Below are positions 2,842-31,560 of a stretch of DNA of 34,552 bases, piece by piece. A model generated the notes under the pieces. That model did no database searches, was not told the DNA's origin, and worked only from the letters and a program-made list of their open reading frames with translations. The number at the start of each line of letters is the position of its first letter. Position 1 is the stretch's first letter. The position numbers and the translations under genes were made by a program. The stretch lies in NCBI GenBank assembly GCA_902806085.1, contig CADCVH010000054.1, positions 1 to 34,552 of the forward strand. The letters are read 5' to 3'. The stretch comes from an uncultured Rubrobacteraceae bacterium. GTDB taxonomy: Bacteria; Actinomycetota; Rubrobacteria; Rubrobacterales; Rubrobacteraceae.

Positions 2842-3689
2842 GCGTCCCTTTCCTCCGTCTTGCCGTGCAGCAGGCGGGCGATGTCCCTCGCGAACCGGGC
2901 CTCCGAGTCGTCTTGCGGATCGTAGCCGATCACCTTCCTGGCGTTGGTGATGCTCCAGAACCGGCGGGCGTTGTTCGAGATGCCGTAGAAGATGTGGAAC
3001 GGGACGCCGTGTTCGTCATCTATGCCCGGCGTCTCGATGGACCTGCAGAAGAGTTGCCGCATGTCCCGTTCGCTTATGTAGCCGGCGAGCTCTCGGACGT
3101 AGCGTTCGGGGGGCGCGTCCTCGAAGGGCGTCGCGTCTATCTCACGCGGGACGACTATCCGGATCTGAACGACCTCCAGCTTCCGCCCAAGGCTGCCGCA
3201 GGCGTAGAGGAACCCGAGCGGCTCCCAGGCCGCCTTGGCCCAGCCGTAGAAGGAGTCGGGCCGCGGGTAGTCCTCCGGGTCCACGCGGTCTTTAAGCCCC
3301 GCGTAGTAAGGGTTCTCGTACCACTTCGCGGCCTGGTTGGTGCTCGCCGCGACGACTCGCCGAACGCCGTGCTCCAGCGAGAGTTGGTAGACGCGCTGCA
3401 TCATGTCCAGATTCCGCCGCTCGCCTTCGTACTGCCTCTGCGGGTCTTCCCCCTCGGGCTTTGAATGCCCGCAGTGGACGACCGCGTCCACGCCTGAGAA
3501 GAGGGGCGCGAGCTCCGTTTCGTCGGCTGAGAGCAGGTCGAGGATCTCGACGCCCTCGACCCCCCTTCCAGGGCCGTCGGTGTCCCGAACGTCGATTATC
3601 CTGAGGTCGTAGCGCTCCCGAAAGGCCGGCAGGAGCTGGCCCGCGATGTAGCCCGTGGCGCCGGTGAGCAGAACGCGCAAGCCGCTCAT
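2838..3689 (-). CDS. NAD(P)-dependent epimerase/dehydratase (extended SDR), uronate-dehydrogenase-like
   Basis: I place the start at ATG 3689, giving MSGLRVLLTGATGYIAGQLL and 283 residues, because this begins right at the Rossmann fold and overlaps the GH38 stop by ATGA; the open frame continues upstream only as shadow. The nucleotide-binding loop is TGATGYIAG (residues 9-17), with Ala where the third Gly of GxxGxxG is expected. An acidic residue after beta-2 (IIDVRD) suggests NAD. VVHCGH and VVAASTNQAAKW are the beta-4 and beta-5 regions, and YGWAK is the catalytic YxxxK. The overall layout resembles uronate dehydrogenases and related small extended SDRs. Sitting after an alpha-mannosidase, it may oxidise or epimerise a released sugar; the substrate is inferred only. 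Confidence 0.85.
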   Translation of the reverse strand: MSGLRVLLTGATGYIAGQLLPAFRERYDLRIIDVRDTDGPGRGVEGVEILDLLSADETELAPLFSGVDAVVHCGHSKPEGEDPQRQYEGERRNLDMMQRVYQLSLEHGVRRVVAASTNQAAKWYENPYYAGLKDRVDPEDYPRPDSFYGWAKAAWEPLGFLYACGSLGRKLEVVQIRIVVPREIDATPFEDAPPERYVRELAGYISERDMRQLFCRSIETPGIDDEHGVPFHIFYGISNNARRFWSITNARKVIGYDPQDDSEARFARDIARLLHGKTEERDA

Positions 3690-6040: not shown

Positions 6041-6883
6041 CTAGCCTTTGATGGCCCCGGAGGTGAGGGCGCGGACGATGAAGCGTTGCAGGATCACGAA
6101 GGTCGCTATGGCCGGGAGCATCGCTAGCACGCCGCCGGCGGCGAGAACGTTCGTCGAGTTCGAGGCGTAGTTGCCCTGGAAGTTGAGGATGCCGATGGAG
6201 ATCGGCAAGAGCGACGGCTCGCTCAGGAGCACGTAGGGCACGACGAACTCGCCCCAGGCGAGGATCGCGGTGAGCACGAACGTGGAGGTGAGGCCGGGCA
6301 GGATCAGGGGCAGCGTCACCCGCCGGAACGCGCCGAAGCGGGTGCAGCCGTCCACCATCGCCGCCTCGTCAAGGGCGGGGGGGACGCCGTCGAAGAAGCC
6401 CTTGAGCATCCAGGTCGCGAGCGGGACCAGGATGGCGATGTAGACCATAGCGGTGCTGAAGTGCGAGTCCACGAGGTTCAGGCGGTCGAAGTAGCGGTAG
6501 AGCGGGATCACGACCACCAGCGGCGAGATCATCTGCAGCCCGAGCACCCCGATGAGGAAGAGTTTGTTGCCCCTGAAGGTCAGCCGGGAGAAGGCGTACG
6601 CCGCCGGCGCCGAGACCACCAGCGCCCCGATGCTCCCCGCGAGGGCGAGCTTGAGCGAGTTGAGGAGAAAGACGGAGAACTGGGCGGTGTAGAGCACCTC
6701 GGTGTAGTTCTCGAAGGTCGGGTTCTCCGGGATCAGGCGCAGCGAGGTTATGAAGATTTCCTGCTGCGTCCGGATCGAGAGCGAGAGCAGCCACAGGAGC
6801 GGCCCGCCGAAAAAGAGTAGCGCGAAGAAGAACACCAGGTAGGTCATCGCGTCGCCGACGCGCCGCTGGGCCCTGCGGCCCAT
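6041..6883 (-). CDS. ABC sugar transporter permease, CUT1 family (MalG/UgpE type)
   Basis: The protein has 280 residues from ATG 6883 (MGRRAQRRVGDAM...). The first TM is FFFALLFFGGPLLWLLSLSI, followed by the periplasmic loop and the usual core of six helices. The conserved EAA loop that contacts the ATPase is DEAAMVDGCTRFGAFRRVTLPLILPG. The C-terminus, QRFIVRALTSGAIKG, is a standard MalG-type ending. The start overlaps the stop of the MalF-type gene by one base (TGATG), indicating coupled translation. Together with the upstream permease and binding protein it forms an importer for an oligosaccharide, probably mannose-containing given the GH38 gene downstream. No ATPase is encoded in this operon. 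Confidence 0.93.
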   Translation of the reverse strand: MGRRAQRRVGDAMTYLVFFFALLFFGGPLLWLLSLSIRTQQEIFITSLRLIPENPTFENYTEVLYTAQFSVFLLNSLKLALAGSIGALVVSAPAAYAFSRLTFRGNKLFLIGVLGLQMISPLVVVIPLYRYFDRLNLVDSHFSTAMVYIAILVPLATWMLKGFFDGVPPALDEAAMVDGCTRFGAFRRVTLPLILPGLTSTFVLTAILAWGEFVVPYVLLSEPSLLPISIGILNFQGNYASNSTNVLAAGGVLAMLPAIATFVILQRFIVRALTSGAIKG

Positions 6884-7821: not shown

Positions 7822-9152
7822 TAGTTGCTCTGCTGCTCGTAGGCCGCCATCGAGGCGTCCGCCGCCTCGTCGAGGGCCTCTTCGGGCGTCGCCTCGCCGG
7901 TGAGGACGGTGCCGATGGCGATCTGGAGCTGGTTGGAGATCTCCGGGTAGACCGGGACGCCCGGCCTGGCCTCGCCCTCCTTCAGCCCCTCGCGGAAGGT
8001 GTCGTAGATCGGGTCCTGGAACTTCTTCTCCTGCTCGAAGATCTCCGGGTTGGTCGGCAACTGGCCGGTGACCTGGTTGCCCTCGCCCACGTAGACTTCC
8101 TTGGTGAACTCTGCGCACATCTCGACCTTCTCCGGATCGTCGGAGAAGGCGCCCATCGTCCAGCCGCCGGTGCCGGTCCTCTGAAGATCGCCCTGGTTCA
8201 TCGTCGGGATGAAGGAGACCTCCCACTTCTTGAACTCCTCGGGGGGCAGCGATTCCTCCAGCGGCGGGTACTGGAAGTCCCCGCCCTGGAACATCGCGAC
8301 CGTCCCGGCCTGCGCCGCGGACTCGAACTCGCTGTAGTCCTTGATCGTGGCTACCCGCTCGGGCGAGGCGCCGCTGTCCACGGCCTCTTTCAGGAACTCC
8401 ATGGTATTGAGCATGTACTCGCGGTTCTGTCCCTCGTGGAAGATGGGCTTGCCCTGCCCGTCTACGAGCTCGCCGCCCTGGCTCCAGAAGTGGGCGAGGT
8501 TGTCGAAGACGGTCCCCTCCCAACGCCCGCCGTTGAAGAGGTAACCATCCACCTTCGAGTCCTTCTGCTCGGCCTCCTGGGCGGCCCGGATGAGCTCGTC
8601 CCAGGTCCTCGGCGCCTCGGGCACCAGATCCGACCTGCGGTACAGGAGCCGCAGGTCCGTCGCCCACCAGTACGCGTAAAGCTTGCCGTCGTCCCCGACT
8701 ACAACATCTTTGACGAAGGGGAAGAGGCCGTCTATCTCTTCCTGGTCGAAGTACTCGTCCATGGGCTGCAGGGCGTCCTGCTCGATGAACTGCGCGACCA
8801 CGAAGGAGTCCACGTTCGCGCAGTCCGGGGCGCGGCCGGCGCGGGCCTGCTCCAGGAGGCGGGCCTGGGCCTGGGTGCTCTGCTCGTCGGGGACGATCTT
8901 GAGCTCCAGCTTCCAGTCCGGGTGGTCCTCGGCGAACTTGGTGAACAGCCTCTCGAACCCATCAGCCCAAGTCGGCGTAGAGGACTGGTGCGTGTAGCTG
9001 TTGTTGAGCTGCAACGTCATCGTCTTCGGGGCGTCTTCCCTGCCTATGCGGTCGAGGGTCAGAACTCCGCCGCCACCGCCGCACCCCACGACGGCAAAAA
9101 CGACTAACAGAACGATGGCGACCCTGGCGGGTCCCGCAGCCCAACGCTTCAC
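7821..9152 (-). CDS. ABC sugar-binding lipoprotein, CUT1 family (solute-binding family 1)
   Basis: Start GTG 9152 (VKRWAAGPARVAIVLLVV) is preceded by GGGGAGGAGAATCGG, a strong ribosome binding site; the open frame continuing to 9251 lies in the untranslated leader. The product has 443 residues. A basic n-region, a hydrophobic stretch and the lipobox VVGC near residue 24 define a lipoprotein signal peptide. A Gly-rich linker follows. The mature part has the family-1 fold: FTKFAEDHPDWKLELKIVPDEQ, ARAGRAPDCANVDSF, YAYWWATDLRLLYRRSDLV, and a C-terminal IAIGTVLTGEATPEEALDEAADA. It would capture the transported sugar outside the membrane. It is first in the six-gene operon and sits under the promoter at 9252-9280. 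Confidence 0.93.
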   Translation of the reverse strand: MKRWAAGPARVAIVLLVVFAVVGCGGGGGVLTLDRIGREDAPKTMTLQLNNSYTHQSSTPTWADGFERLFTKFAEDHPDWKLELKIVPDEQSTQAQARLLEQARAGRAPDCANVDSFVVAQFIEQDALQPMDEYFDQEEIDGLFPFVKDVVVGDDGKLYAYWWATDLRLLYRRSDLVPEAPRTWDELIRAAQEAEQKDSKVDGYLFNGGRWEGTVFDNLAHFWSQGGELVDGQGKPIFHEGQNREYMLNTMEFLKEAVDSGASPERVATIKDYSEFESAAQAGTVAMFQGGDFQYPPLEESLPPEEFKKWEVSFIPTMNQGDLQRTGTGGWTMGAFSDDPEKVEMCAEFTKEVYVGEGNQVTGQLPTNPEIFEQEKKFQDPIYDTFREGLKEGEARPGVPVYPEISNQLQIAIGTVLTGEATPEEALDEAADASMAAYEQQSN

Positions 9153-9357: not shown

Positions 9358-9879
9358 TCAGTCGCGTTCGACGTCCTCGGCCGTCGTGGCCCCGGTCATG
9401 ATCGCCACGGCGTCGGACATGCTCACCTCGTCCGGCCTGACGACCGCCACGCGCTTCCCGAGGCGCTGGATGTGGATGCGGTCGGCTACGTCGAAGGCGT
9501 GGGGCATGGTGTGGCTTATGAGGATCACGGGCAGCCCCTTGTCCCGCACCTGGCGGATCAGGTCGAGCACCATCCCCGACTCCTTGACCCCGAGCGCCGC
9601 CGTCGGCTCGTCCATGATGACGACGTGACGCGCGAACGCGGCGCTGCGGGCCACGGCCACGCCCTGGCGCTGCCCGCCCGAGAGCGTCTCCACCGGCTGG
9701 CGCATCGAGCGGATGCCGATCTTGAGGTCGCTCATGTACGCGTCGGCCTCGCCCACCATGCGCTTTTTGTCCAGCATGCGGAAGACCTTTCCGAGGATGC
9801 CGGGCCGCCGTATCTCCCGGCCGAGAAAGAGGTTGTCCGCTATCGTCATGGCGGGCGCCACGGCGAGGTCCTGGTAGAC
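9358..9879 (-). pseudogene. Decapitated CUT2 sugar ABC ATPase (no Walker A)
   Basis: From VYQDLAVAPAMTIADNLFLGRE to the end this matches the second half of a ribose/fructose-type ABC ATPase: LSGGQRQGVAVARS signature, VVIMDEPTAALG Walker B, and LISHTMPHAFDVADRI with the H-loop His. Compared with the intact relative at 13471-14274, homology begins at that protein's residue 96, at the Q-loop. The Walker A (GDNGAGKST in the intact copy) is absent. The open frame continues to 9972 with an unrelated N-terminus (MAVRTMITLSALW...). Without Walker A it cannot bind ATP normally, so I treat it as a remnant. By eye it is only about half identical to the intact ATPase, so it is not a recent copy. It lies downstream of the FGGY kinase on the same strand and may be left from an older transporter operon. 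Confidence 0.8.
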
Positions 9880-10020
9880 GCCCCACGTCAGCCAACGTGA
9901 CCCGCCTGGCACTACCCCTCTCTGCTCCCTCGGCCAAAGTGCCGACAACGTTATCATCGTGCGAACCGCCACGTTACCGAAAGGGCGGCGCGCGTCCCCA
10001 CCGGAAGGCGCCCGGGTTGG

Positions 10021-21354: not shown

Positions 21355-21930
21355 TTGCGCCCCGACAGGCTCGCCCACCTCGTCTCCGCCGTCACCCGCC
21401 TTCCCCTGCTGGCCGTCCCGCTCTTCTTGGCCGTCGGCGCGGAAGCCGCGGGCGCGGGCGGCCTGCTCTGGGGCCTTCTGTGCGTCTCCCTGACGAGCGG
21501 TCTCTCGCTGCTCTACCTCTTCTACCTTGCAAGGTCCGGCAAGGTCCGCGACCCGCGCAGCATCCCGCGCGCCGAGCGGGTGGGACCCTTGCGCGTCGTT
21601 GCCGCGATGCACGCGGGGGCCTTCCTGATCGTCGCCTCGCTGGGAGGCCCCGCCCCGCTAACGGCGGCCCTCCTCTCCTACACGATAGCCACCGCGCTCT
21701 TCGCCCTGCTCACGCCCTTCATAAACATATCCCTCCACGCGGCCGGCGTGGCGGGCGCGGCGGTCTGCCTGGCCTTCGTCTTCGGTGCTTTAAGCCTGCC
21801 TGCCTTCGTGCTGCTGCCCGCCGTGTTCTGGGCGCGGCTAAGGCTCAGAAGGCACACGGTGCCCGAGCTCGCGCTGGGCGCGCTGGTCGGGGGCGGAGGC
21901 ACGGGGGTGGCGTTCGGCCTCCTCGCCTGA
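21355..21930 (+). CDS. Polytopic membrane protein of unknown function
   Basis: The frame can start at TTG 21337 (overlapping the Nif3 start codon) or TTG 21355, which I prefer because the first start would sit inside the presumed promoter. About 191 residues. The sequence alternates hydrophobic helices (LPLLAVPLFLAVGAEAAG, GLLWGLLCVSLTSGLSLLYLFYLA, VVAAMHAGAFLIVASLGG, LLSYTIATALFALLTPFINISLHAAG, AAVCLAFVFGALSLPAFVLLPAVFWARLRL, ALGALVGGGGTGVAFGLL), about six in all. A polar loop contains KVRDPRSIPRAERVGP. This layout resembles small phosphatase-like or phospholipid-related membrane proteins, but I see no complete PAP2 motif. Function unknown. Confidence 0.75.
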   Translation: MRPDRLAHLVSAVTRLPLLAVPLFLAVGAEAAGAGGLLWGLLCVSLTSGLSLLYLFYLARSGKVRDPRSIPRAERVGPLRVVAAMHAGAFLIVASLGGPAPLTAALLSYTIATALFALLTPFINISLHAAGVAGAAVCLAFVFGALSLPAFVLLPAVFWARLRLRRHTVPELALGALVGGGGTGVAFGLLA

Positions 21931-21935
21931 GGAAG

Positions 21936-22070
21936 AGGTTCTAGGCATTGAGGTTTTGAGGCACTAGGGGCACGTTACGCGGCTCGGGGTCGCAAGCCGG
22001 TGCAATCGTGGGGCGATGCTATCGTAGCAGTCCCCTTCTCCACCCCTCAAAAACCTGGAACCTCAAAGCC
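21936..22070. repeat. Intergenic inverted repeat, copy B of an AGGTTTTGAGG-type element
   Basis: GAGGTTTTGAGG (21950-21961) pairs with CCTCAAAAACC (22045-22055), and AACCTCAAAGCC (22059-22070) extends the pairing with GGCATTGAGG on the left. The left side also contains two tandem versions of a 15-base unit, GAGGTTCTAGGCATT and GAGGTTTTGAGGCACT. The block fills the gap between the membrane-protein gene and the convergent small ORF. It shares the GGTTTTGAGG core and arm geometry with copy A at 16439-16512. Confidence 0.55.
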
Positions 22071-22075
22071 TTATT

Positions 22076-22288
22076 TCAGCCCTGTTCGATAAAGCGGCGT
22101 AGCGCTCTGGCGTAGACGATCGGGACCTTGCGCGTGTTCGCCCAGTCCTCCAGGTCGATGCCGAGCCTCACGCCGCGCCGGATCTGGTGCAGGTCGTCGT
22201 CCAGGTCGTCGCCGCGGCCCCCGAGGGCGAACTCCTGGCGCAGGGCCTCCAGGTCTTCCCTCTCCAGCCTTCTGCTCTCGGAACCCAA
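22076..22288 (-). CDS. Small hypothetical protein, 70 aa
   Basis: Not recognised. TTG 22288 follows GGGGAAGGGCGAGC and gives GSESRRLEREDLEALRQEFALGG as a charged N-terminal helix, then LHQIRRGVRLGIDLEDWANTRKVPIVYARALRRFIEQG, a compact mixed helix pattern. The residue pattern looks like real protein rather than a shadow. It starts 36 bases downstream of tRNA-Ala on the same strand and may be co-transcribed with it. The gene ends within the hairpin repeat. Another reading of the region is non-coding. Confidence 0.5.
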   Translation of the reverse strand: MGSESRRLEREDLEALRQEFALGGRGDDLDDDLHQIRRGVRLGIDLEDWANTRKVPIVYARALRRFIEQG

Positions 22289-22324
22289 GCTCGCCCTTCC
22301 CCGGAACCGTGCAAGAGATCAGAG

Positions 22325-22397
22325 TGGACCCGACGAGACTCGAACTCGTGGCCTCCGCCATGCGAGGGCGGCGCTCTCCCAACTGAGCTACGGGCCC
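22325..22397 (-). tRNA. tRNA-Ala (anticodon CGC)
   Basis: Folding the minus strand gives a complete 73-base cloverleaf without encoded CCA. The acceptor stem is GGGCCCG with CGGGTCC, including the G3:U70 wobble that is the identity element of tRNA-Ala. The D stem is GCTC/GAGC, the anticodon stem CCGCC/GGCGG with loop CTCGCAT (anticodon CGC, reading GCG), the variable loop AGGCC, and the T stem ACGAG/CTCGT with loop TTCGAGA. The discriminator is A. GCG is a common alanine codon at this GC content. Confidence 0.95.
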
Positions 22398-22453
22398 AAA
22401 AAAGGCTCTAGAATCCTAGCAGCCGCCCACCCGATTGCAAGGAGTAGGGGCGG

Positions 22454-22500
22454 TTGGCGCTGCTGGCTCCGAACCAGCGACCTCTGCCGGGTGAAGGCGC
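22454..22500 (-). repeat. Degenerate tRNA-Val(CAC) 3'-half fragment, candidate attachment site (left)
   Basis: On the minus strand this reads as a decayed anticodon arm with loop TTCACCC, then variable bases AGGTC, a T arm GCTGG-TTCGGAG-CCAGC and a mutated acceptor end. It aligns without gaps to the fragment at 33575-33621 with about 39 of 47 identical bases, in the same orientation. There is no D arm or 5' acceptor strand beside it. The T loop has lost its conserved A, so it is a relic. It lies about 60 bases from the intact tRNA-Ala. Confidence 0.65.
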
Positions 22501-22557
22501 GCCGTTGGTGGCCTGGCGTACCCCCGTTCGTGACTTGGGTGGGGCGGTCCGGGCACG

Positions 22558-22583
22558 AAAAAGGCGGAGCAACCCTCCGCCTT
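22558..22583 (-). terminator. Rho-independent terminator of the LPXTG gene
   Basis: On the minus strand a perfect nine-base stem AAGGCGGAG / CTCCGCCTT with a five-base loop is followed by a T run (TTTTTCG overall). It starts about 20 bases past the stop of the LPXTG gene, in the right direction for it. Confidence 0.85.
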
Positions 22584-22604
22584 GAAGACGTTCGAGTGCT
22601 TGAG

Positions 22605-23120
22605 CTATCTTCTCACTAGCCCAATAGCGAAGACCCCGCCCGCGATCAGCAATGCCAGGGGTACGAGCGCCAGCGCCGGGGAGAGGCCGCCGGTCTCCGG
22701 CAGCACGACCGTTTCGGTCTCGGCCGTGGCAGAACCGTCCGCTACGGCGGAAGTGTCTTCTTCCGCGTCTGCGGTGGCGTCTGCGGTGGCGTCTGCGGTG
22801 GCGACCGGGGTTCCCCCCTCGATAACGTCGGGCAGGTCGCTCGCCTGACAGCCGTCCGGGGTCTCTCTCGGGAAGTCGGGGTCGGGGCAGGGGTCCGCCG
22901 AGGGACTGGCGGACGGGACACCCTCGCAATACGCGCCGTCGTCGGTCTGGTCGCAGGAGTAACCCTCTGCAGCGAGCTCCGAGGCCTCATCGACCGAAAG
23001 ACCCGTACAGACCTCCCCGCCTTCGCCGTTGGGTGTGCAGGAGGCGCTGGCCGACGCGCTGGCACCCGCGCTCGTGGACTGCGCCATCACCGGCGCGCTT
23101 AACACCAAAACCATCGCCAT
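22605..23120 (-). CDS. LPXTG cell-wall-anchored surface protein, signal peptide disrupted by frameshift
   Basis: The open frame from ATG 23120 has 171 residues: a hydrophobic start (MAMVLVLSAPVMAQ, probable cleavage after AQ), a Thr/Ser/Ala-rich body with six cysteines in about 100 residues, an ATADATADATADAEE tandem segment, then the sortase signal LPETGG, a hydrophobic helix (LALVPLALLIAGGVFAIGL) and terminal RR. ATG 23120 has no ribosome binding site. Instead, AAGGAG precedes GTG 23160, whose frame reads VRRLLLLFALCTM and would join perfectly onto AMVLVLSAPVMAQ if one of two tandem TATG copies were absent. So the true gene probably starts at 23160 and is out of frame as given. A class A sortase would anchor the product; none is encoded here. 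Confidence 0.85.
   Translation of the reverse strand: MAMVLVLSAPVMAQSTSAGASASASASCTPNGEGGEVCTGLSVDEASELAAEGYSCDQTDDGAYCEGVPSASPSADPCPDPDFPRETPDGCQASDLPDVIEGGTPVATADATADATADAEEDTSAVADGSATAETETVVLPETGGLSPALALVPLALLIAGGVFAIGLVRR
22766..22806 (-). repeat. 12-bp tandem repeat inside the LPXTG gene
   Basis: About three copies of a 12-base unit (GTCTGCGGTGGC on the plus strand) encode repeated ATAD in the protein. The repeats keep the frame, so copy number change would lengthen the stalk before the LPETG signal without disrupting it. Confidence 0.7.
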
Positions 23121-23125
23121 ACATA
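23118..23125 (-). other. TATG tandem duplication causing the LPXTG signal-peptide frameshift
   Basis: The plus strand reads CATACATA here. Removing one four-base copy restores a single frame from GTG 23160 (with AAGGAG upstream) through the signal peptide to the LPETG end. Short tandem duplications of this type arise by strand slippage. Confidence 0.7.
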
Positions 23126-23160
23126 GTACATAGCGCGAACAGCAACAATAATCTCCTCAC

Positions 23161-23519
23161 GGCGTCTCCTTCTTGCTTGCCTTCCCGAACCCCAAAGAGT
23201 ACCTACACCGCTCTTCCGGGAATGGTCGCATGTTGGGCAGGTTCCAATGTCTCGCGCAAGCTCGAACACCTGGAATCTCGAACGGTTGACCTGTTGCCCC
23301 AGGTGCGGCGCGCAGGTGGGGGCCCGTTTTTGCCGCAGGCGATGACCCGTCTTCTCTGCGACCTTCGTGCTGCCTCGCGTTCTGCACCCTCCGGCGGTAG
23401 TGCTTCTCGTCACCCGGCGCTTGCCGAAGGCGAGTTGACTCGCGTTTGGGCGGTTGTTAGGGTGGCCGCAAGTCGGCTCCGATGTTGAGGATGTCTCGGA
23501 GGGGGGAAGGGGAGAGCAA
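23161..23519. promoter_or_regulatory. Divergent intergenic region with promoter-like TTGACT and an inverted repeat
   Basis: This 359-base stretch separates the LPXTG gene from the second CUT1 operon. I see no convincing gene in it. TTGACT (23435-23440), 17 bases, then TAGGGT (23458-23463) is a plausible plus-strand promoter, about 57 bases before ATG 23520. Further upstream, CACCTGG (23267-23273) and CCAGGTG (23299-23305) are perfect seven-base inverted arms 25 bases apart, a possible operator. AAGGAG just left of 23160 on the minus strand is the ribosome binding site for the LPXTG gene. Confidence 0.4.
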
Positions 23520-24830
23520 ATGGGTGGACGCTCGGTGGGGCGTAGGTGGACGCGGCGCGATTTCTTGAAGGTCGGCGGCGGTGCCCTGGTGGGCGCGTAT
23601 GCATTGGGGACGGCCGGGTGCGGCGGGGGCGGGTCCGGGTCCAGTGAGTTGACGGTTTTGACGTGGGGGAGCACGAGCGGGGAGGAGAAGGGGTTCCGCG
23701 GGCTCGCCGAGCGTTACAACGCGCAGAACCCCGAGGTGCCGGTCAAGATGGAGTTCGTGCCGCCGGATCAGGCCTACGAGCAGCTCGACACCCGCCTGGC
23801 GGCCGGGGAGGCCCCGGACATCGCCCGCCTCCAGTACCAGCAGATGGGGAGGTACGCCTCCCAAGGGGCGCTCGTGGACCTCTCCGAGTACCTGGAGGAA
23901 GGCTACGGCGACGCGTTCACGCCGGCGTTGTGGCAGGCGGTCAACTACGAAGACAAGCCCTACGGCATGCCCCAGCACACCGACACCTTCGCCGTCTTCT
24001 ACAACACCGACATCTTCGAGAAGGTCGGCATAAAGGCGCCCCAGAGCATGGAAGAGGCCTGGACCTGGGACGAGTTTCTGGACATATCGACCGGGATCAA
24101 AGAAGAGGGGGCCGCGGACTACGCGTTCGCCTACAACTGGCAGGGCGACACGGCGGCCTACCGCTGGATGCCGCTGCTCTTCCAGCACGGCGGCCAACTC
24201 CTCGACGAGAGCCTCGGCGCGCCGGCCGTGGACGACCCCGCCGGCATCGAGACCGTGGCCTTCACGAAGCGGTGGTTCGACGAGGATCTGGTCCCGCCCA
24301 GCACCTCCATAAAGAGCGGCGAGCAGGTAGAGACCCTGTTCTCCAACGGCACGACGGCCATGATGCTCAACGGGGACTGGTTGATCCCCTTCGTGGTAGA
24401 CAACATGAAGGCCGGGTGGGACGTGACGTACATGATCCGGGACCAGGGGATGGCCTCCGACCTTGGCGGCAACGCGCTTGCCGTTACCAGGGACAGCCCG
24501 AACGCCGAGGCGGCGGCGGATTTTCTCAAGTTTGCAGGCAACGAGGAGAACATGAGCAGGTTCTGCATAGACGGGGGTTTCATCCCGGTCCGGACGTCTC
24601 TCGCGGAGCAGGGCCTGGATTACGAGCAGAGTCCCAAGCAGATGAACCGCTTCGTGGAGCAGGCCACGACCGTGCCGGAGAAGATGGCCCGGGAGCAGAC
24701 CGTCCCGGCCTTCGGCAACATCGTCCAGGTTCTGGCGGACCAGCTCGAATCCGCTTTCAAGACCGGCCAGTCGCCGGAGCAGACGGCGCGAAACATCTCC
24801 GGCGGCATCCAGGAAGCCCTGGATAGTTAA
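23520..24830 (+). CDS. ABC sugar-binding lipoprotein, CUT1 family, Tat signal
   Basis: ATG 23520 follows GGGGAGAG and gives 436 residues; the open frame to 23454 is upstream leader. The signal is a Tat type, RRWTRRDFLKVGGGALVGAYALG, followed by the lipobox TAGC and a Gly/Ser linker. The mature protein is a family-1 solute-binding protein: LTVLTWGSTSGEEKGFRGLAERYNAQNPEV, RLAAGEAPDIARLQYQQMGRYASQGALVDLSEYL, FAVFYNTDIFEKVG, TTAMMLNGDWLIPFV and NALAVTRDSPNAEAAADFLKFAGNEENM. It captures the oligosaccharide for the next two permeases. Substrate is probably a galactoside given GH4 and GH2 downstream, an inference from context. Confidence 0.94.
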   Translation: MGGRSVGRRWTRRDFLKVGGGALVGAYALGTAGCGGGGSGSSELTVLTWGSTSGEEKGFRGLAERYNAQNPEVPVKMEFVPPDQAYEQLDTRLAAGEAPDIARLQYQQMGRYASQGALVDLSEYLEEGYGDAFTPALWQAVNYEDKPYGMPQHTDTFAVFYNTDIFEKVGIKAPQSMEEAWTWDEFLDISTGIKEEGAADYAFAYNWQGDTAAYRWMPLLFQHGGQLLDESLGAPAVDDPAGIETVAFTKRWFDEDLVPPSTSIKSGEQVETLFSNGTTAMMLNGDWLIPFVVDNMKAGWDVTYMIRDQGMASDLGGNALAVTRDSPNAEAAADFLKFAGNEENMSRFCIDGGFIPVRTSLAEQGLDYEQSPKQMNRFVEQATTVPEKMAREQTVPAFGNIVQVLADQLESAFKTGQSPEQTARNISGGIQEALDS

Positions 24831-31375: not shown

Positions 31376-31476
31376 CAGGTCCTCGTGAACCGGCTGTGGG
31401 TCGAGAGGATGGACCGCAGCGGGGTGGACCCCAAACGCCCGTCGGAGCCCGAGCGCGGACCCGGGCCCTTGCGCCG

Positions 31477-31560
31477 TGCCCTCGGCGTGGCCCTTGGCGT
31501 GGCCCTTGGCGTGGCCCTTGGCGTGGCCCTTGGCGTGGCCCTTGGCGTCGCCCTTGGCGT
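31477..31560. repeat. 12-bp minisatellite
   Basis: The unit GGCCCTTGGCGT occurs five times without change (31489-31548), with one degenerate copy on each side (31477-31488 and 31549-31560). All six frames stay open across it, creating artefactual repeat ORFs (for example LGVA or KGHA repeats). It lies between the patatin remnant and the DAG-kinase-like gene, and I see no gene that includes it convincingly. Confidence 0.9.

Follow-up and report, generated by a model that had tools for sequence, protein, structure and literature searches.

The closest described systems in which a short duplication silences a surface feature are the tandem duplications in pneumococcal capsule genes (wchA/cap8E, tts and the type 3 locus; Waite et al. 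2001, 2003, as summarized in a section of PMC4022640). There the duplication lies within an open reading frame, and exact reversion is conceivable. According to the same section, insertions no longer than 9 bp are expected to revert at about 1e-5 or below; an excerpt of PMC11868660 states that classic phase-variation assays detect down to about 1 variant in 1e5 colonies. The locus described here resembles the pneumococcal cases in that a perfect tandem copy, which the intact form as read from homologues lacks, breaks an open reading frame. It differs in its target, an LPXTG-type protein of a Rubrobacter-family bacterium, and in being known from one assembled allele.

Phase variation by simple sequence repeats (contingency loci, as outlined in part of PMC11868660) offers a second comparison. 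The repeat at this locus likewise lies early in the open reading frame and its unit (7 or 4 bp) is not a multiple of three, so adding or removing one unit shifts the frame. Unlike the tracts of contingency loci, it has two units only, forms no hypermutable multi-copy tract and is absent from five of five aligned homologues. In Mycobacterium tuberculosis, frameshift indels and their scars (PMC8339072, in the portion dealing with these) also represent indel-based silencing in an actinobacterium, where a second indel can reverse the first; the present case comes from one assembled genome. A literature search on 7-bp duplications gave no match, and one on Rubrobacter with LPXTG or sortase gave nothing on this subject, as judged by title.

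The LPXTG gene and its two reading frames

The window (the whole stretch of DNA analysed, 34,552 bases) comes from a Rubrobacter-family bacterium and carries on its minus strand a gene predicted to encode a small LPXTG cell-wall protein of the sortase type. Its features are listed in Table 1.

Table 1. Features of the surface-protein gene and of the repeat at its frame break
Feature	Position	Strand	Remarks
Ribosome-binding site AAGGAG	23166..23171	minus	5 nt 5' of GTG 23160; AAGGAG precedes the start in 5/5 aligned homologues
GTG start and first half of signal peptide, VRRLLLLFALCTM, after which the frame departs	23121..23160	minus	
Perfect 7-bp tandem duplication, CTATGTA x2 (CTATGTACTATGTA), probable frame-breaking lesion	23120..23133	minus	sole perfect period-7 tandem in the window
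TATGTATG, 4-bp tandem of the first reading, overlapping the 7-bp duplication	23118..23125	minus	
TGA closing the GTG 23160 frame	22987..22989	minus	position by count
Out-of-frame body open reading frame, 171 aa plus stop	22605..23120	minus	remainder of signal peptide, Ser/Ala/Asp-rich region and DPCPDPDFPRETPDGCQASDLPDV stretch common to L002
LPETG sorting motif, followed by hydrophobic stretch and RR tail	22689..22703	minus	alignment with L002 and L009; position by count

The start context reads AAGGAG-ACGCC-GTG. An earlier note on this DNA had proposed that GTG 23160, with its AAGGAG site, begins a signal peptide that is not joined in frame to an LPETG-anchored body, and these points were borne out. 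The frame from GTG 23160 parts from the body frame after 13 codons and reaches a stop after 57. The frame beginning at ATG 23120 (MAMVLVLSAPVMAQ) has 171 open codons, a GC3 of 0.79 and a C-terminus consisting of VVLPETGG, a hydrophobic stretch and RR. DPDFPRETPDGCQASDLPDV is a region of the protein.

The gene shares with LPXTG cell-wall proteins (Gram_pos_anchor PF00746/TIGR01167) the C-terminal motif, hydrophobic segment and basic tail (LPETGG...LVRR, aligned with L002 and L009), and its signal peptide resembles those of L004 and L009, which both match PF00746 over the cut-off. It differs from them in that the signal peptide is out of frame with the body, and in that the body yields no Pfam or NCBIfam family at E<=1. 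The LPXTG assignment is based on motif, alignment and relatives, with no curated model match; the gene is absent among the TIGR01167 and PF00746 matches in its own genome. That genome has 13 sortase matches (PF04203) over the cut-off, 12 with open frames and one that runs off a contig end; the locus L108 was left out of the analysis.

The closest paralogue, L002, is in the same genome and shows 54% identity to the body; it too has no Pfam family at E<=0.1. Among the four homologues scanned with Pfam, matches over the cut-offs were Excalibur and Gram_pos_anchor in L004, Excalibur in L010, Gram_pos_anchor in L009 and nothing in L002. A search of 60 genomes (own included) with the body sequence gave a match at E<=0.01 in 18, many of them to the C-terminal part only. 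A scan of public genomes with the body alignment gave two loci, both in one Rubrobacter MAG.

A search for sigma-70-like promoters on the minus strand from 22400 to 23460 found none, and the gene may thus lack transcription from a standard promoter altogether. An Rfam scan of positions 21900–23600 gave nothing above the gathering score except tRNA-Ala. A terminator-like pattern with 9 pairs, including 3 G-C, extends across the repeat; 2 such sites were found versus 0.9 in shuffled sequences, and the pattern was given no weight.

The repeat unit at the frame break

The earlier note had placed the break at a short tandem repeat in the signal peptide, which holds, and had taken the unit to be TATG, which fits less well than the 7-bp unit CTATGTA. 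Both readings shift the frame equally; therefore the frame alone does not discriminate between them. As an exact word, TATGTATG occurs once in the window against a mean of 0.03 in 100 shuffles. Perfect 4-bp tandems of any sequence are common: 115 occur in the window (30 first-order Markov simulations average 153), and 253,849 bases sampled from the same genome contain 848, a density equal to that of the window (about one per 300 bp). Perfect period-7 tandems number one in the window (CTATGTACTATGTA), versus a mean of 3.0 in simulations, and 26 in the same genome sample. At the density of that sample, the chance of a 7-bp tandem within 20 bases of a given point is about 1 in 240 (hand calculation).

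The unmodified 5' ends of the window gene and five homologues, two of which are from the same genome, were aligned with MAFFT. AAGGAG is present in all six and all start at (A/G)TG AGG. At the lesion the alignment places a gap of exactly 7 nt in four of the five homologues and of 10 nt in the fifth, and the repeat is absent from all five. For example, L002 reads GCG CTA TGC ATG GCG where the window has GCG CTA TGT (ACTATGT) ATG GCG. Homologues that start at ATG 23120 and have two TATG copies were also looked for and none was found; the aligned homologues start at the codon matching GTG 23160.

The signal peptides of L002, L004, L010 and L027 have 25 residues to AQ (counted by hand). The 7-bp reading gives this same length and the 4-bp reading gives one residue more; signal peptides tolerate one extra residue, which weakens the length argument against the 4-bp unit. 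Because the sole period-7 tandem lies at the break, four of five homologues show a 7-nt gap and signal peptides of relatives have 25 residues, the lesion is most likely a 7-bp tandem duplication rather than a TATG unit, with the ancestral state read from homologues of 38–54% identity over the body.

Genomic surroundings and other LPXTG genes

The gene adjoins a tRNA-Ala(cgc). A DNA search of the region in nine genomes of the genus detected no orthologous stretch; of its 21 rows, 15 correspond to a tRNA-Val-like end and most others to parts of family members. The NIF3 neighbour is present in seven of the nine genus genomes (own included). The stretches around it in six relatives gave no match to the body at E<=1e-5, four of the six being short with a contig end nearby. 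In genome G006, the open reading frame before the same tRNA-Ala is one that we take, by eye, to be a short-chain dehydrogenase, and a search of the short G003 contig with the body gave no match; for these two reasons the window gene is probably accessory.

A tRNA-Val(cac)-like 3' fragment (22453–22502, minus strand) is located just before the tRNA-Ala (22324–22397). In G006 (L060), an intact tRNA-Val (312–384), an integrase fragment (1105–1560) and two tRNA-Val-like ends (6687–6738 and 7872–7930) are found before the same tRNA-Ala. This arrangement suggests an integration hotspot in the tRNA-Ala neighbourhood.

Elsewhere in the window, an ABC-transporter ATPase (9358–9972, minus strand) matches the second half of its domain model only (64–137 of 137) and is possibly truncated, and a 12-bp tandem array of about 8 copies, GGCCCTTGGCGT, occupies positions 31464–31560.

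Fourteen LPXTG genes of the genome were compared (12 TIGR01167 matches, the window gene and L002), a list that is incomplete, as there is a further anchor upstream of L081. Three of the 14 are frame-broken, each by a different lesion. Besides the window gene these are L080 (G000:C118, ~34.6–35.1 kb), in which signal peptide and anchor are in different frames, and L084 (G000:C106, ~64.1–64.6 kb), where reading beside its relative L077 reveals two or more frame changes plus a stop. In L080 the sole perfect tandem with a period between 5 and 39 is one of period 5 further downstream, at 1521–1530. In a loose test for an in-frame signal peptide, 9 of 12 genes of this genome passed. The failures were L080, L084 and L081; the last fails for want of a usual start codon alone, its signal stretch being in frame, and it was not counted as frame-broken. 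L081 (anchor at G000:C118:34518–34598) is a member of a tandem LPXTG array and has no usual start codon before its signal stretch.

Six relatives gave 57 matches, of which 30 had loci and 27 were readable (three without the motif were dropped). All 27 passed the same loose test, L131 and L133 being doubtful; L110 has a TAG within its match. Two other relatives do have broken LPXTG genes: L016 (G010:C7), whose signal peptide and anchor do not share a frame, and L026 (G026:C371), a gene fragment with neither a signal peptide nor an intact anchor.

Interpretation of the probable duplication

With good confidence, the LPXTG gene is considered to have been inactivated in this genome by the 7-bp CTATGTA tandem duplication within its signal peptide, and no evolved switch is indicated. 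The earlier note had raised reversible ON/OFF expression through slippage at the tandem repeat; with either a 4-bp or a 7-bp unit, cells of the population would then alternate between making and not making the surface protein. In favour of such switching are the out-of-frame tandem repeat early in a surface-protein open reading frame and the phase-variable capsule loss that spontaneous tandem duplications are reported to cause in pneumococci (Waite 2001, 2003, cited in the section of PMC4022640 referred to above). Switching is nevertheless unlikely, given that the repeat has two copies only and is missing from every aligned homologue. Moreover, reversion of so short an insertion is expected at about 1e-5 at most, near the limit of classic assays (excerpts of PMC4022640 and PMC11868660), and the two other broken genes carry different lesions, L080 having no such repeat and L084 having several lesions. 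As the lesions differ in kind, those in the three genes fit decay or turnover of surface genes better than a shared switch. A broader proposal is that frequent indels disrupt the frames of the organism's many LPXTG genes and so diversify its sortase-anchored surface, with part of the repertoire off at any time in each cell lineage and the window gene representing one off state. The excess of broken LPXTG genes in this genome is also predicted by this proposal, which is held to be quite improbable.

A sequencing or assembly error, the true gene being one-copy and intact, might be suspected in a draft assembly of 133 contigs with a contamination value of 4.55. When 288 kb of this genome, including the window and comprising 283 coding segments, were scanned with a codon model, 12 frame changes were called; as a control the scan is imperfect, being blind to a 13-codon offset such as that of the window gene. 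In nine of the 12 the stop of the upstream frame lies within 75 nt, as at a gene border, and four of these nine have no listed start codon for the next gene. The remaining three look like broken genes and all are in one 12-kb stretch of contig C2 (L106, G000:C2:5001–17000, near 3334, 3815 and 9877), the only non-border frame changes in the scan. With just three such changes in 288 kb the assembly does not appear to be rich in frameshifts; 12 of the 13 sortases also have open frames, and widespread base-calling problems are unlikely. Nor is a perfect 7-bp tandem in mixed-base sequence an error of the homopolymer type, and an error at this site seems improbable.

Continued production of the protein, either from ATG 23120 as start codon or through ribosomal frameshifting, is very unlikely. 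ATG 23120 does open the whole body frame, and MAMVLVLSAPVMAQ is hydrophobic with a V-M-A/Q end as in relatives. Against this, no purine-rich site before ATG 23120 and no slippery motif were seen by eye, the product would have no basic n-region, the upstream codon is the start in homologues, and the stop of the GTG frame lies ~130 nt downstream, which is unfavourable to coupling.

Under the preferred reading, inactivation by the 7-bp duplication, a second, adjacent copy of CTATGTA would have arisen within the hydrophobic portion of the signal peptide, probably via replication slippage. Ribosomes starting at GTG 23160 would leave the body frame after the 13th codon and terminate after codon 57; with the export signal unjoined to the body, no anchored protein would be formed. 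Exact reversal would be possible in principle. As the body frame remains uninterrupted, the loss is likely to be recent or polymorphic.

If the duplication represents inactivation only, the annotation would be corrected, as a start at ATG 23120 is probably false, and the locus would be one more case of surface-gene decay. If alleles are mixed in the population, it would provide a lead to phase variation in a Rubrobacter-family organism.
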